Source of the DNA: Candidatus Streptomyces philanthi | Lineage (GTDB): Bacteria > Actinomycetota > Actinomycetes > Streptomycetales > Streptomycetaceae | Length of the DNA stretch: 64,000 nt | NCBI GenBank assembly: GCA_018114805.1 | Contig: CP073042.1 | Coordinates: 2,294,001-2,358,000, forward strand | Direction of reading: 5' to 3' | Shown: positions 54,767 to 60,616 of the stretch, piece after piece | Position numbering within the stretch: position 1 is the stretch's first letter | Layout of the letters: each line of letters starts with the position of its first letter | The notes under the pieces: model-generated | What the model was told of the DNA's origin: nothing | Databases searched by the model: none | What the model saw: the letters and a program-made list of their open reading frames with translations, nothing else | Made by a program: the position numbers and the translations under genes

Positions 54767-54839
54767 GCCTCCGTAGCTCAGGGGATAGAGCACCGCTCTC
54801 CTAAAGCGGGTGTCGCAGGTTCGAATCCTGCCGGGGGCA
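54767..54839 (+). tRNA. tRNA-Arg (anticodon CCT)
   Basis: Acceptor stem GCCTCCG pairs with CGGGGGC (one T-G). D arm GCTC...GAGC, anticodon stem CCGCT/AGCGG with loop CTCCTAA (anticodon CCT, reads AGG), T arm GCAGG/CCTGC with TTCGAAT, discriminator A. CCA follows in the DNA (54840-54842). A terminator lies right after. tRNA 3' ends are common integration sites. Confidence 0.95.
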
Positions 54840-54851
54840 CCAGCAAGAAAG

Positions 54852-55042: not shown

Positions 55043-56971
55043 TCATGCTCCTCCCGCGGCCCTCGCGAACCGGGACCAGTCGGTGAACTCCCAGTCCCAG
55101 CGGCGGCAGACGCGTTCTTGGGGGAGGTCGGGCTGGGAGGGGGCGAGGAGGAGGAGTTGGGCGTGGCGGCCGTCGCCGACGATGGCCAGGAGGTAGCCGC
55201 CCGGTTGCGCCAGCATGAGGGACATCTCGTTGTTGGTCATGGCGAACCGGGCGTCGGGCCGGTCCAGCTTCTTGACCTCGATGCGTACCGGTTCGCCGCG
55301 TGGGTCGATGCCCTCCAGGTCGTAGCCGACGTTCTGCGCGCTGACGTCGCGGAGTGTCCAGCCGAGGTGGTTGAGGTATTCCTTCGTCGCCAGTTCGGCC
55401 GCCCGCCACCGTTTCAGTATGGACGCCAGGGAGTTGTCCGCGGAGGGGGCCGCCTTCGTGACGCGGACTTCCTCGGTGCGTAGCGGGGCGGCGGGTGGCG
55501 GGGCGGTGGGCGGCTCCTCCTGCGGGCTGGCCTCCTGGACGAGTCGGCTCTCGGCCTCGGTGAGCCTGCGGCCGTGGGTGCGGGCCAGTTCCTGGAAGTG
55601 GGCGGCCAGGCGCGCGCGGAGTGGGTCGGACAGCAGGGTGGGGTCCAGGTCGGCCAAGAGGGCCGTGAAGTCGACGCTTCGCAGGCCGAGGACCGTCTTC
55701 AGCGCCCGGGCGGCGGACTGGTGGCGCGACGCGTACAGCACCTGTGGGGCGCCGTCGGGGAAGATGACCCGCACGTCCCGCGGCTCCAGTGGGAGCGGGG
55801 AGTGGGCGAACGGCGGGCGGTCATCTCCTCGCGCAGCGCGGAGACAAGGAGCTTACCGGCGGAGGCCGTTCCGGAGATCAGCACGCCGCGCAGGTCCTCG
55901 CCATCCAGGACCAACTGCCACAGCCGCTCGAACATCGGGTCGCCCGGTGTGCGCAGCCGCCGCGCGATGGCGTGGGCCGCGTCGGCCAGCACCTGGCGGG
56001 TCGACGCGTCCGCCGTCACCGCTTGGGTGCGGGAAGGGTCGGTGAGGAGGTCGCCGGAGACGACGACCGGCAGCCCCACCTCGTCCTGGAGCGGCAGGAA
56101 GCAGGCCAGTCGGCCCCGTACGCCGGTCATGGCCAGGGCGCGGGCGTCGAGGGGTACCGCCACGGTCGCCGCACCGTGGCGCAGCAGGGCGAACGCCGCC
56201 TCGGCGCCGTCGACGCGGAGCACGACCCGGGTGGCGTCGCGTTCGATGTGGATGTCCTGCGGGGCGGCCGCAACCCCTTGGCCCACGCCGACGCCTCCGG
56301 CGCCCGTTCCCGACGCCGGCCCCGTCGCCGCGGGGGTGCGGACGCGCGTCACGTTGCGGAGGAACAGCGCGCTGAGCGGGTCGATCGCCCCGGGCGTCGC
56401 CGCACCACCCGACGGCATCGCCGCGCTGCCCGACGGGGCGGCGGGTCGGCGGGTCGCTGGCAGGTGACGGTGAAGGTGACGCCGGCGACCGGCGCGTCGG
56501 GGTGCACCTCGGTGGGTATCCGGATCAGCGGCACCGCGCTCGCGTCGACCTCACCGAGCAGCGCCGCGGCGGCCGTCCGGTCGAACGCGAAGCGCACGCC
56601 CGCCGACTGGACGTCGATCCGGTGGGCGATGGCCGCCAGCGACTTGAAGCCGATGCCCCGGTAGCCGATCGAGTCGCCGCCGCGCGACTTGGTGGAGCTG
56701 GCACTGCGGCACAGCGCTTCGACGTCCGCCGCGTCCAGTGGGCGCCCGTCGTTGCCCCAGCGGAACCGGCCGCCCCCAGGTCCTCGACGAGCACGGTGCG
56801 GGCGCCGGCGTCGTCGGAGTTCTGGAGGAGTTCGTACGGCACCCGGTCCCGGTAGGTGTCGGCCAGCAACCCTTCCATCTGGGCGACCTCGCGGAAGAGT
56901 CCGGGTGCCTGCCGGTGTTCGCGTACGAGGGTGTCGCGCAGGGCGGCGACGGCCGTCGGCAGGGCGGTCAC
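55043..56971 (-). pseudogene. GHKL (Hsp90/sacsin/NOV-like) ATPase with C-terminal DUF3883 domain (three frameshifts)
   Basis: About 640 residues when joined. The N-terminal part has an Hsp90/MORC-type ATP-binding domain: N-box VPYELLQNSDDAGA and glycine box SIGYRGIGFKSLAA. The middle is unassigned (DIHIERDATRVVLRVDGAEAAF, GDPMFERLWQLVLDGEDL). The C-terminal DUF3883/NOV domain shows TKEYLNHLGW, VGYDLEGIDPRGEPVRIEVKKL and MTNNEMSLML. The D...E-x-K arrangement resembles PD-(D/E)XK nucleases. Breaks near 56779 (one G missing), 56440 and 55815. GTG start 56971 overlaps the previous gene's stop. Proteins of this type sit in defence-related loci in other genomes. Function here unknown. Confidence 0.75.
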
Positions 56972-57401
56972 AGGTCCTCCGCGTCCAGGACGCGGACCAC
57001 CACGCGGGTGGGCTTGCCGGACAGGTCGTCAAGGTGGAACGGGAGTTGGACGATCCAGCGTGGCTGACGCGACGGCACCGCGCCGCCCTCGCCGACCAGC
57101 ACCCGCCCGTACAGCGGCGTCTCGCGCTTGTCGAGCAGGAAGTCGCTGTCGTCCAGCACCTCGACGGCGAGCGCGGGCAGCGGGACCTCGAAGGGGCACT
57201 CGTCCTCGACGTCGCTCTCGTCCTCGGGGGCCTCGCCACGCCACGTCTCCATGGCGACGAGGTCGGTCAGCAGTTCCCTGGCCGTCGCGAACTCCGCGAA
57301 CCCACCGACGCGCACCTGGAGGGTCGCCTCGCCCTTGGCGCCGACGAACGTGGCGTCACAGGTGGTGGGCCTGAGCCGGACGGCCTCGTGGACCGTCTCA
57401 T
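56968..57401 (-). pseudogene. Hypothetical protein, middle gene of GHKL cassette
   Basis: About 144 residues, unrecognised. The frame with strong third-position G/C begins right at the end of the previous gene (ETVHEAVRLRPTTCDATFVGAKGEATLQVRV) but has no start codon in frame before a GTG at 57315. An ATG overlapping the upstream stop (57401) is in another frame, so a small indel near 57390 is likely. Acidic, beta-rich (ESDVEDECPFEVPLPALAVEVLDDSDFLLDKR). Coupled at its 3' end to the ATPase gene (56968-56971 overlap). Confidence 0.55.
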
Positions 57402-57868
57402 TCCATCAGCTCGACGGGCAGCGGCTTGCTCCTCGTCCCGGGCCAGGTCAGGTCGAGGTCGGTCTCGCCGACGTCGAAGGCGGTCACCTGGAGCGCGATC
57501 TGCTCGGGCCTGACGCGCTGGGAGGTCTCCCAGGTGCTGCTGGTCTGGGAGAAGCGCACCGGCCGCTTGCTGGCCTTCTTGATCGTCTCCAGCAGGGCGG
57601 GCGTGTAGCTGACCGCGTCGGGCCGTTCCACCGGGCTCAACCCGAGCAGCAGCGTGGGCGGGTAGTCGTCGTCCTCGTCCGCCGAGAAGCGGTCGGTCCA
57701 GTCCTCGCGCAGGAAGCGGGCGGTGCCCGAGACGACGATCTCCTGGAAGTGGGTGCCATCGAAGCTCTCCGTCACCAGCCGCGCGCGTACGTTCTCGACC
57801 TGCCATCCGACCAGCGACAGCGCCAGCTCGTCGACCTGTACGTCGGGTTCCTCGATCTTCTTCCCCAT
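57398..57868 (-). CDS. Hypothetical protein, first gene of GHKL cassette
   Basis: A 156-residue protein with no domain I know. Acidic overall, with ALSLVGWQVENVRARLVTESFDGTHFQEIVVSGTARFL and ALQVTAFDVGETDLDLTWPG. No signal peptide or TM segment. It heads a leftward run of three overlapping genes ending in the GHKL-DUF3883 protein; the overlaps show they are made together. It could be an adaptor or sensor for the ATPase (inference). Confidence 0.65.
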   Translation of the reverse strand: MGKKIEEPDVQVDELALSLVGWQVENVRARLVTESFDGTHFQEIVVSGTARFLREDWTDRFSADEDDDYPPTLLLGLSPVERPDAVSYTPALLETIKKASKRPVRFSQTSSTWETSQRVRPEQIALQVTAFDVGETDLDLTWPGTRSKPLPVELME

Positions 57869-58312
57869 CGACGCCCCGCCCCTCCCGTTCGCCCGCTCAG
57901 GCCAGCTCAGATGTGGGTGACTTGCAGACGATAGCTCCCGACCTTCACACGTCCTCCACGCACCCTGACGGGGTCGCCCGCCCCGGTGAGGGTGAGGGCG
58001 CGCGGCGCCGACGCGAGTCGGAATGGCGGCCCGCCGGGGGCTGCCGAGTGGCTGGTTGTCGCTTTGTCCGGGGACGAGGCGACCGGTCCGCTAGGCGGGC
58101 TTATTCGACACCTGTCAACATAGGGGCGCGCCGATGGGGTGGGAGGCGGAGGTCTCCGCGCCGCGGCGACGGTCAACGCTCGGCGGGGCCCCGCGGCCTC
58201 CCCGATCCGTCGTCACGCCCTCAGGTACGTACGGAGCGTAAAAGTGTCGTCACGTACGGATCGTCTGGCCCCGTCCACCAGGCAGGGGCTGCTGCCACGT
58301 TCGAGGAGAGCC
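57869..58312. promoter_or_regulatory. Divergent region between GHKL cassette and ArsM-like gene
   Basis: About 440 bases. On the minus strand a TTGACA (58118-58113) with a TAGCGG about 19 bases further could drive the GHKL cassette. No clear promoter is seen for the rightward gene. No gene in the interval. Confidence 0.4.
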
Positions 58313-59413
58313 ATGTCGACCACCACGGCCGCGTACGTCCAGGAGTGCGGCGGAGGGAACCCTCCGTCCCCCGCGGGCCGACCCGCCCCCCGGCTGCCGC
58401 ACGGCGCCGCCCCCGCCGCACGTCGCGGCGGCCCTGCGGCGGGTGCACGGGGAGGTGGTGGACCGGTTCCACGGGCGCGGCTCACCGATCCCCGCGGCCC
58501 TCGCCGGCGCCACGGTGCTCGACCTGGGGTGCGGCAGCGGGCGCGACGCCTACGTGCTGGCCCAACTCACCGGCCCCACCGGGCGGGTGATCGGGGTAGA
58601 CGTGGCGGAGAACCAACTGGAGGTGGCGCGCCGGCACCTGGGCCACCACGCCGAGCACTTCGGCTACGCCAACGTCGACTTCCGCAACGGCTACCTGGAG
58701 GACCTCAGCACGGCGGGCATCGCGGACGGCTCCGTGGACGTGGTGGTCGCCAACCGCGTGGTCAACCTATCCCCCTGCAAGCCCGGCTGTTCGAGGAGAT
58801 CTTCCGCGTCCTGCGGCCCGGCGGCGAGTTGCACTTCTGCGAGATCTTCGCCGACCGCCGCATCCCCGCGTCCCTCATGGAGGACCCGGAGCTGCTGGGC
58901 GAATGCCTCAGCGGCGCGCTGTACGAGCGGGACTTCCGCCGTCTCATGGCCCGTTCGGGCTGCGCCGACGTGCGGGTGATCGACCGGTGCCCGGCGCCCG
59001 TCTCGCACCCGGAGATCGCGCGCAAGATCGGGTACGTGAACTTCTCCGCGCTCACCGTGCGGGCGTTCAAGCTGCCCCTGGAGGGCGGGTGCGAGGACTA
59101 CGGCCAGACGGCCGTCTACCGCGGCACCCTGGAGGGGCACCCGCACGCCTTCGACCTCGACGACCGGCACCGGTTCGCCACGGGCCGGCCAACCCCGGTG
59201 TGCGGCAACACCGCCGACATGCTCGGCCGGACCCGCTTCGCCGCGCACTTCGACGTCACGGGCGACAAGACGGTGCACCGCGGCGTGTTCACCCCCTGCT
59301 CCTCCCCCGCCCATGATCCCGACGGCGCGGCGGACGGCGGGGGCGGCGAGCCCGACGGGACGAGCGGGGCGGACGGGACGACCGGGCCCGAGGGGGCGGA
59401 GGCGCCACGCTGA
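58313..59413 (+). pseudogene. ArsM-like arsenite methyltransferase (frameshifted)
   Basis: A class I methyltransferase with ArsM architecture: VLDLGCGSGRDAYVLAQLTGPTGRVIGVDVAENQ (SAM site), VNLSP, VLRPGGELHFCEIFADRRIPASLMEDPELLGECL, the third ArsM Cys in GGCEDYGQTAVYRGT, and a C-terminal region with TPVCGNTADMLGRTRFAAHF. The start (MSTTTAAYVQE) and end are in one frame, the middle in another: shifts near 58400 and near 58780 (one C missing in AAGCCCGG). The second ArsM Cys (SNCVVNLSP in relatives) is Arg here (ANRVVNLSP), so the protein may not bind arsenite. Part of an arsenic gene cluster. Confidence 0.72.
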
Positions 59414-59491
59414 CGCCCGGGGTCGCGCGGGCGTCAGGCCCGGCTCCGGCCGCCCCGTGCCAGCGTCCGGCCGTACCCACACTCGGCCACC

Positions 59492-60616
59492 TCAGCGTTC
59501 GGCCGCCGAGGGCCGCGCGGTGGGGGCGAACTTCGCCGGCCAGGCGAGGGAGACGTACACCAGGCCGATCAGGACGGGCACCTCGATCAGCGGGCCGACG
59601 ACGCCGGACAGGGCCTGGCACGAGGTCACGCCGAAGGTGGCGATGGCGACGGCGATGGCGATGGCGAGTTCGAAATTGTTGCCGGCGGCGGTGAACGCCA
59701 GCGTCACGGTCCGGTCGTACGCCAGCCCGATCGCCTTGCCGAGCAGGAAGCTACCGGCCCACATCAGCGCGAAGTACGCCAGCAGCGGCAGCGCGATCCG
59801 GGCCACGTCCAGTGGTTGGGAGGTGATCGTCCTTCCCTGGAGGGCGAAGAGGATCACGATCGTGAACAGCAGCCCGTACAGCGCCCACGGCCCGATCGCG
59901 GGCAGCACGCGGGCCTCGTACGACTCGCGCCCCACGCGCCGCTCGCCCAGGTGGCGGGGGAGGAAGCCGGCAAGCAGCGGGATGCCGAGGAAGACCAGCA
60001 CGTTCAGGGCGATCTTCCCCATCGAGATGTCGAGGCGCTCGCCGTCGCCCAGGCAGAGCTAGCCCGGCAGCAGGTCCAGGTAGAGCCAGCCCAGCAGGCC
60101 GAAGGCGATGACCTGGAAGACGGAGTTCAGCGCGACCAGCACGGCGGCGGCCTCCCGGTCGCCGCTGGCCAGGTCGTTCCAGATGATGACCATGGCGATG
60201 CAGCGGGCGAGGCCGACGATGATCAGGCCGGTCCGGTCCTCGGGCAGGTCGGGCAGGAAGATCCAGGCCAGCGCGAACATGACCGCGGGTCCCACGAGCC
60301 AGTTGATCACCAACAAGGAGACCATCAGCCGCCGGTCGCCGGTGACCGCGTCCAGCCGGTCGTACCGGACCTTGGCCAGGACCGGGTACATCATGACCAG
60401 CAGGCCCACGGCGATCGGCAGCGAGACCCCGCGGATCTCGACTTTGGCGAGCGCGTCGTCCAACCCCGGGACAGCCCGCCCGAGCCCCAGCCCGAGGGCC
60501 ATGGCCAGCATGATCCACACAGCCAGGAAGCGGTCGAGGGTGGAGAGCCCGGCGACGACCGAGGTCTCCTGGCCCGCTGGCGGCGACGCATCATCGATCA
60601 GTTCGGCGCGGTTCAC
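59492..60616 (-). pseudogene. Arsenite efflux permease ACR3 (internal TAG)
   Basis: ACR3-type As(III)/H+ antiporter with ten TM helices. Key Cys in LIIVGLARCIAMVIIWNDLA. A TAG at 60060-60062 interrupts the hydrophobic LLPG*LCLGDGE, where Trp (TGG) is expected. Downstream the frame is open (ISMGKIALNVLVFLGIPLLAGF, AFTAAGNNFELAIAIAVA). A single base change would give a ~374-residue protein. Overlaps the arsR gene by four bases (60613-60616), so both are translated from one message. Confidence 0.85.

Follow-up and report, generated by a model that had tools for sequence, protein, structure and literature searches.

We examined a stretch of 64,000 nucleotides (hereafter the window) from Candidatus Streptomyces philanthi, corresponding to positions 2,294,001 to 2,358,000 of contig CP073042.1, within a 7.34 Mb genome that is assembled as a single contig and is 99.54% complete. 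Reverse-frame reading of window positions 55043–57868 revealed a leftward-coding cassette of two genes, which we refer to as A and B. Gene A (56968–57868, minus strand) encodes a protein of about 300 amino acids (aa); gene B (55043–56971, minus strand) encodes a protein that is 602–652 aa long in relatives and comprises a sacsin-type GHKL ATPase, a middle region and a C-terminal NOV_C (DUF3883) domain. The stop of A and the start of B share the four bases GTGA (56968–56971, minus strand). A preliminary description of this DNA, made from the sequence alone, had assigned leftward coding to the segment, as we confirmed, and had divided it into three genes linked by 4-base overlaps, a reading that we rejected. 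In seven relatives that carry an intact pair (S. anulatus (L009), loci L010, L012 and L013, and genomes G154 (L020), G094 (L021) and G940 (L073)), the supposed first and second genes form one uninterrupted open reading frame (ORF), A, which in the window is split into two frame pieces (57868–57398 and about 57396–56968). Only one of the claimed overlaps is therefore real, and comparison with these relatives indicates that the three-gene picture is an artefact of frame breaks. The true overlap measures 4 bases in the window and in every one of the seven intact pairs, its sequence being ATGA in L012 and L013 and GTGA in the other five. A −10-like hexamer, TATCGT, read by eye, lies ~60 bases upstream of A (57928–57933, minus strand), and the pattern TAnnnT was likewise seen by eye at the matching place in the window and the seven relatives.

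The two ends of B belong to recognizable families. Three B proteins matched the NCBIfam sacsin ATP-binding domain NF047352 at 63.2 (L009), 65.8 and 61.4 bits (cut-off 50), while Pfam SACS stayed under its cut-off for the L009 and L012 proteins. The N-box (ELLQNSDDAG, 56804–56833) and glycine box (GYRGIGFKS, 56640–56666) of the GHKL ATPase, both on the minus strand and both reported in the preliminary description, are the same in all seven intact relatives. The C-terminal DUF3883 domain and its D...ExK pattern, also reported there, were found again: the window's C-terminal piece of B matched Pfam NOV_C/DUF3883 at 6.9e-10 (39.3 bits, cut-off 22.1), the intact relatives' B proteins matched it above cut-off, and the motifs QNVGYD and EVKK that mark this region (GYD ... 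EVKK; 55169–55387, minus strand) are kept in every intact B. The pattern D...(E)xK is that of the catalytic residues of PD-(D/E)XK nucleases. No DUF4263 domain was detected by Pfam at an expectation value (E) of 0.1 in two B proteins. DUF3883 was called a novel restriction endonuclease (REase) domain in a 2013 survey (PMC3710099).

We modeled B with AlphaFold2 from four sequences. The model is poor overall, with a mean predicted local distance difference test score (pLDDT) of 45, but contains an alpha-beta-beta-beta-alpha-beta arrangement at residues 479–574, where block pLDDT is about 52–73. A structure comparison (VIA), whose entries were drawn from a Foldseek-ranked list, returned matches centred on residues 467–606, and the 50 that were listed are mostly nucleases. 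The best match to the C-terminal part among them was the SPARDA nuclease (Z 7.7 over 115 residues, root-mean-square deviation (rmsd) 3.8), accompanied among the matches listed by Hjc (Z 7.5), RecU (7.0), PvuII (6.5), DpnI (5.8), EcoRV (4.7) and tRNA-splicing endonucleases (up to 7.3); the tool cautions that Z below 8 can mean merely a common arrangement, and one listed match is a sex-pheromone precursor. In the Foldseek search itself, all eight entries below E 0.001 were acetyl-CoA carboxylases with rmsd of about 23–28, which we took to be spurious, and nuclease entries ranked lower, from E 0.0096. Because the fold matches agree with the motif and the Pfam domain, we find the prediction of a PD-(D/E)XK-type nuclease core at the C-terminus of B persuasive.

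Protein A, by comparison, matched no family: intact A sequences gave no match in PADLOC, in Pfam (E 0.1) or in NCBIfam (E 0.1), and one window piece of A gave a single Pfam match far under its cut-off. Its structural model, of middling quality (pLDDT 64), is mostly beta and folds into two halves. In that model, the segment 163–299 aligns over 85 residues with the immunoglobulin (Ig)-like domain found in GH2 glycosidases (Z 6.7, rmsd 2.2), and residues about 18–137 resemble GH2, FN3 and cytokine-receptor domains (Z 5.2–6.2), all of which we take to be Ig-like. The model thus suggests two tandem Ig-like beta-sandwich domains. Foldseek returned nothing for it at E 0.001; sequence searches of solved structures returned nothing for A4 at E 5, and the one match for A2 (0.1) was discarded as chance-level. 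No internal repeat was found at the sequence level, since alignment of the halves with hhalign scored 15.1, within the range of 30 column shuffles (8.2–16.3), so the two-domain reading comes from the model alone. The preliminary description had envisaged an ATPase–nuclease with two accessory proteins; the GHKL/NOV ATPase–predicted nuclease with a partner of no matched family stands, and the number of partners falls to one.

That description had also suspected frameshifts, and these were borne out. The window's A occurs in two frame pieces (with a change near 57.40 kb) and its B in four (changes near 56.77, 56.44 and 55.8 kb), and one of the gaps is several bases long. To place these breaks in context, we used tblastn to align genes from G154 and G031 to the window. 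Frame changes relative to the window were found in 9 of 24 G154 genes including A and B (7/22 among the others) and in 10 of 33 G031 genes, whereas between the two relatives they were found in only 2/28 and 0/30. Breaks are thus common in comparisons with the window and scarce between its relatives, and therefore most of them probably come from an error-rich assembly of the window. In this genome of 99.5% completeness, about a third of the window genes compared are nonetheless frame-broken against two close relatives. Any 'new small genes' in this window should accordingly be treated with suspicion, and the case is a warning that an assembly may look complete and still contain frame breaks that give rise to spurious additional genes.

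The breaks also raise the alternative that in this strain the cassette is decaying and no longer has a function. It carries four breaks, including the gap of several bases, whereas the frequency of breaks among the other genes compared would predict about one (hand calculation, P about 0.02); at the corresponding site in S. buecherae, all that is left of the cassette is roughly the C-terminal 190 aa of B. Against decay, many other window genes are broken as well; the ratio of nonsynonymous to synonymous substitution rates (dN/dS) relative to G154 lies, for both A (0.28) and B (0.40), within the 0.06–0.72 spanned by 18 other genes (some of these values being probably inflated by breaks); and G154 holds an intact pair at the same site. 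We consider a functionless remnant quite improbable.

Surveys of genomes found the cassette to be rare. Among Streptomyces genomes, 7 of 392 carried A and 6 of 382 carried B, the S. buecherae remnant being included in the six; in an earlier sample, the C-terminal piece of B was found in 5 of 199 (the three samples overlap). The single A among 396 genomes sampled from the phylum was that of the window's own genome, and six loci were confirmed in a pattern-based, non-exhaustive scan for the C-terminal piece of B across GTDB species genomes. The intact pairs extend outside Streptomyces to Ca. Mycobacterium methanotrophicum (L012) and Tomitella cavernea (L013). G115 and L009, which have identical B, were counted once, as were G031 and L011, and a 27-aa match in Rhodococcus gordoniae (L014) was not counted as a copy. 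Among plasmids, one record was found for B, at 28%, and just fragments in two Streptomyces plasmids for A.

More distant relatives of B bear on a further alternative, in which the cassette is a non-immune chaperone or DNA-maintenance unit whose sacsin-type ATPase acts on proteins or in repair and whose nuclease-like fold is structural. At E 1e-10, a class-level search with B matched 90 of the 394 genomes covered; in ten stretches taken from that search, an ORF matched the B profile in five and the A profile in none (E 1e-3). The five are long sacsin-like Actinomycetota proteins of 1,040–1,567 aa, two with helicase domains and none with NOV_C at E 0.001, as might be expected under this alternative, and PMC3710099 describes sacsin as a chaperone. 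The D...ExK motif, however, is kept in 7/7 intact B proteins, and the distribution is sporadic, with some defence neighbours; a chaperone or maintenance role therefore seems to us far from probable.

Where the two genes occur together they have diverged in parallel: across 21 locus pairs, the identities of A and of B show a correlation of 0.95, with A less conserved than B in all 21 (the pairs are not independent). A complete B without A was found in none of the genomes searched; B without A was limited to the S. buecherae remnant (B residues 415–601, with no ATPase) and the 27-aa Rhodococcus match. Homologues of a small gene scattered without the ATPase, which the preliminary description had named as a sign against its proposed unit, do exist to a limited extent. 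A occurs without B in genomes G963 (L075, 9329–10225) and G1005 (L076, 9166–10047, and a partial copy, L077, 9426–9773), and G940 has an additional A (L074, 9821–10702, minus strand) besides its A–B pair. G963 and G1005 contain no B elsewhere in the genome, just long sacsin-like proteins, and no B remnant above chance was found in the 2.5 kb following a solitary A. The solitary A genes of L074, L075 and L076 are 79–82% alike and seem to have been kept by selection, because they are open and have dN/dS values of 0.32–0.44. The solitary copies end in CTGTGAGGA (L074, L075 and L077) or CTGTGAGGG (L076). Such endings agree with the loss of an overlap, but we did not count them as marking relics of a lost B, since any A that ends CTG-TGA gives the same result. 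L075 and L076 have in common an upstream gene that appears, by eye, to encode a small membrane protein.

The asymmetry, in which A alone is tolerated and complete B alone is not seen, leans towards a role for A in holding B in check, as judged from few loci, and a B unable to work without A would give the same asymmetry. The same observations bear on a toxin–antitoxin-like guard pair, in which B would be a toxic nuclease, A its inhibitor and the solitary A genes spare antidotes or decoys, with immunity a by-product or an abortive response. Such a pair would fit the finding of complete B solely alongside A (seven intact pairs plus the broken window copy), the presence of A without B in two of the seven A-bearing Streptomyces genomes and of an extra copy in a third, the constraint on the three open solitary genes, and the lower conservation of A in every locus pair. 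The ATPase motifs of B, however, would be needless for a simple toxin, A is larger than usual antitoxins, and a sensor indispensable to B would produce the same pattern over these few loci. We regard a guard pair of this kind as unlikely. A related proposal is that of a new two-component immune module, in which an Ig-like A guards an Hsp90/sacsin-type ATP-gated nuclease and the solitary A genes work in trans, as antidotes or decoys through which the cell can tolerate incoming elements carrying the pair; this we likewise regard as unlikely.

The cassette lies beside a tRNA gene, tRNA-Arg(CCT) (54767–54842, plus strand), whose distance from the end of B is 201 bases, in agreement with the ~200 bases reported previously. 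On its other side, at 58389–60616, it adjoins genes in more than one frame for what we take to be an arsM-like methyltransferase and an ACR3-like arsenite transporter, both long ORFs in G154 and G031. The tRNA gene and the arsM-like gene flank a variable stretch in the window, G154 and G031: the window has A and B alone, G154 has a 260-aa ORF and a PDC-S27 gene in addition to A and B, and G031 has an HNH gene and a B remnant. At this site in S. buecherae (L022, 8549–9775), which holds the HNH gene, a deletion extends from upstream of A into B. From these comparisons the stretch looks like an insertion hot spot. The insert between the tRNA and the cassette in G154 (L020, 5603–8414) comprises the 260-aa ORF, which has no PADLOC or Pfam match, and the PDC-S27 ATPase. 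S. anulatus also has a tRNA of this kind, 5 kb beyond B, and a gene for a PNP-type effector separates the two; after that gene come two proteins of 660 and 177 aa with no Pfam or PADLOC match (L009, 10901–13501), possibly a further defence operon.

Other copies also have defence genes nearby. Within about 8 kb, L012 encodes DpdE (1.6e-258) and HmaA (E 0), and L013 encodes a type ISP restriction enzyme (E 0); a neighbour in L021 is identified by Pfam as an nSTAND1-WD40 protein and has no PADLOC match. PADLOC also matched a kinase in L073 and the arsM-like methyltransferase in L020, matches that we disregarded as generic. The defence context expected in the preliminary description thus holds in that such genes (HmaA, DpdE, the type ISP restriction enzyme, the PNP effector and PDC-S27) stand beside several copies, and their presence is suggestive rather than a measured enrichment.

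Comparison with known systems placed B closest to Tiamat, an anti-phage system. The ATPase part of B matches TmtA in PADLOC (1.3e-26 for L009, 1.1e-24 for L012), with the best stretch at TmtA profile positions 18–143 of 1370, and the window's NOV_C piece weakly matches positions 1196–1322 of 1370 (0.00037). The preliminary description had considered the cassette a candidate for an undescribed system, a claim that must be toned down given that both ends of B match TmtA. There are also clear differences: B is 602–652 aa long while the matched TmtA profiles are 1302–1782 long, the long middle being absent from B, and the cassette has a second, conserved and overlapping gene, A, whereas Tiamat is a single stand-alone gene. 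We found no description of an A-like partner or of the A–B pair in the open PubMed Central (PMC) literature searched. Sequence comparison thus indicates that the cassette is a rare, compact two-gene variant near Tiamat, and outside it by length and gene number. Tiamat is listed in PMC10482375 among systems enriched in Actinobacteria, with its mechanism unknown and its location almost always chromosomal.

Two other known systems and one further gene pair share parts of this design. VcSduA (Shedu type I-D, paraMORC3), as described in PMC12137116, combines a GHKL ATPase with a C-terminal PD-(D/E)xK nuclease and was shown to be anti-phage; the same source models it as a clamp-like dimer and hypothesises an ATP-controlled clamp. 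B likewise has a GHKL ATPase ahead of a C-terminal predicted PD-(D/E)xK nuclease, but the nuclease domain of VcSduA is DUF4263 rather than NOV_C and VcSduA is a single protein. Its GHKL subfamily presumably differs from that of B. For Hma, the HmaA-like protein of L012 has a C-terminal NOV_C domain and adjoins the cassette there, and B weakly matches HmaA at NOV_C; the HmaA motor, however, is an SNF2-type helicase, unlike the GHKL ATPase of B. Finally, a Planococcus lenghuensis plasmid encodes a compact, 684-aa sacsin-type ATPase–NOV_C protein with an overlapping upstream gene (WP_077591171/WP_077591170). B is 28% identical to the 684-aa protein over residues 2–307, but the upstream product (209 aa) has no PADLOC or Pfam match and no NCBIfam match near cut-off, and looks unlike A by eye. 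Compact TmtA-like proteins may therefore pair with different partners. The plasmid segment with this pair (L072, 8681–12049) also contains a third small gene.

We tentatively propose, at a little short of an even chance, that the cassette is a two-gene immune system and a compact relative of Tiamat, in which B is an ATP-gated nuclease and A acts as both sensor and restraint. An ATP-gated dimeric nuclease is proposed because of the domain anatomy of B and the analogy to VcSduA. By that analogy, ATP binding would close the sacsin/Hsp90-type ATPase part of B as a dimer clamp, and closure would bring two C-terminal PD-(D/E)XK domains together; the paired domains might then cut invading nucleic acid, or that of the host as an altruistic response. 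A, made together with B through the overlapping stop and start, would bind B and restrain it, releasing it when A senses a phage or plasmid signature.

Several observations weigh against an immune cassette. The window's copy of A and B is broken as sequenced, the structural models are poor for B and middling for A, the Z values for B, being under 8, may reflect no more than a common arrangement, and A occurs without B in some genomes. A search of 50,697 phage records gave no match (E 1e-5), and pattern scans of viral contigs gave no confirmed relative of A or B. L010 and L073 have no specific defence match by PADLOC among three flanking genes each. Of neighbour genes picked by eye, a set that excludes the window's own flanks, PADLOC matched 5/10 and then 2/10 (both generic enzymes), and among randomly drawn control genes it matched 1/10, over 50 aa.

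The immune reading is nonetheless drawn because of the domains and conserved motifs of B, the overlap and linkage of the two genes, their patchy spread, the defence genes near several copies, the variable tRNA site and the analogy to VcSduA. On these grounds we regard small-scale immunity, directed at phages or plasmids, as the likeliest of the functions considered for the cassette. It would represent a Tiamat-like version at about half size, with the ATPase near the nuclease and one small partner, and hence a tractable model. The question that it opens, how sacsin-type ATPases control a nuclease, is one that could be tested in standard Streptomyces strains.

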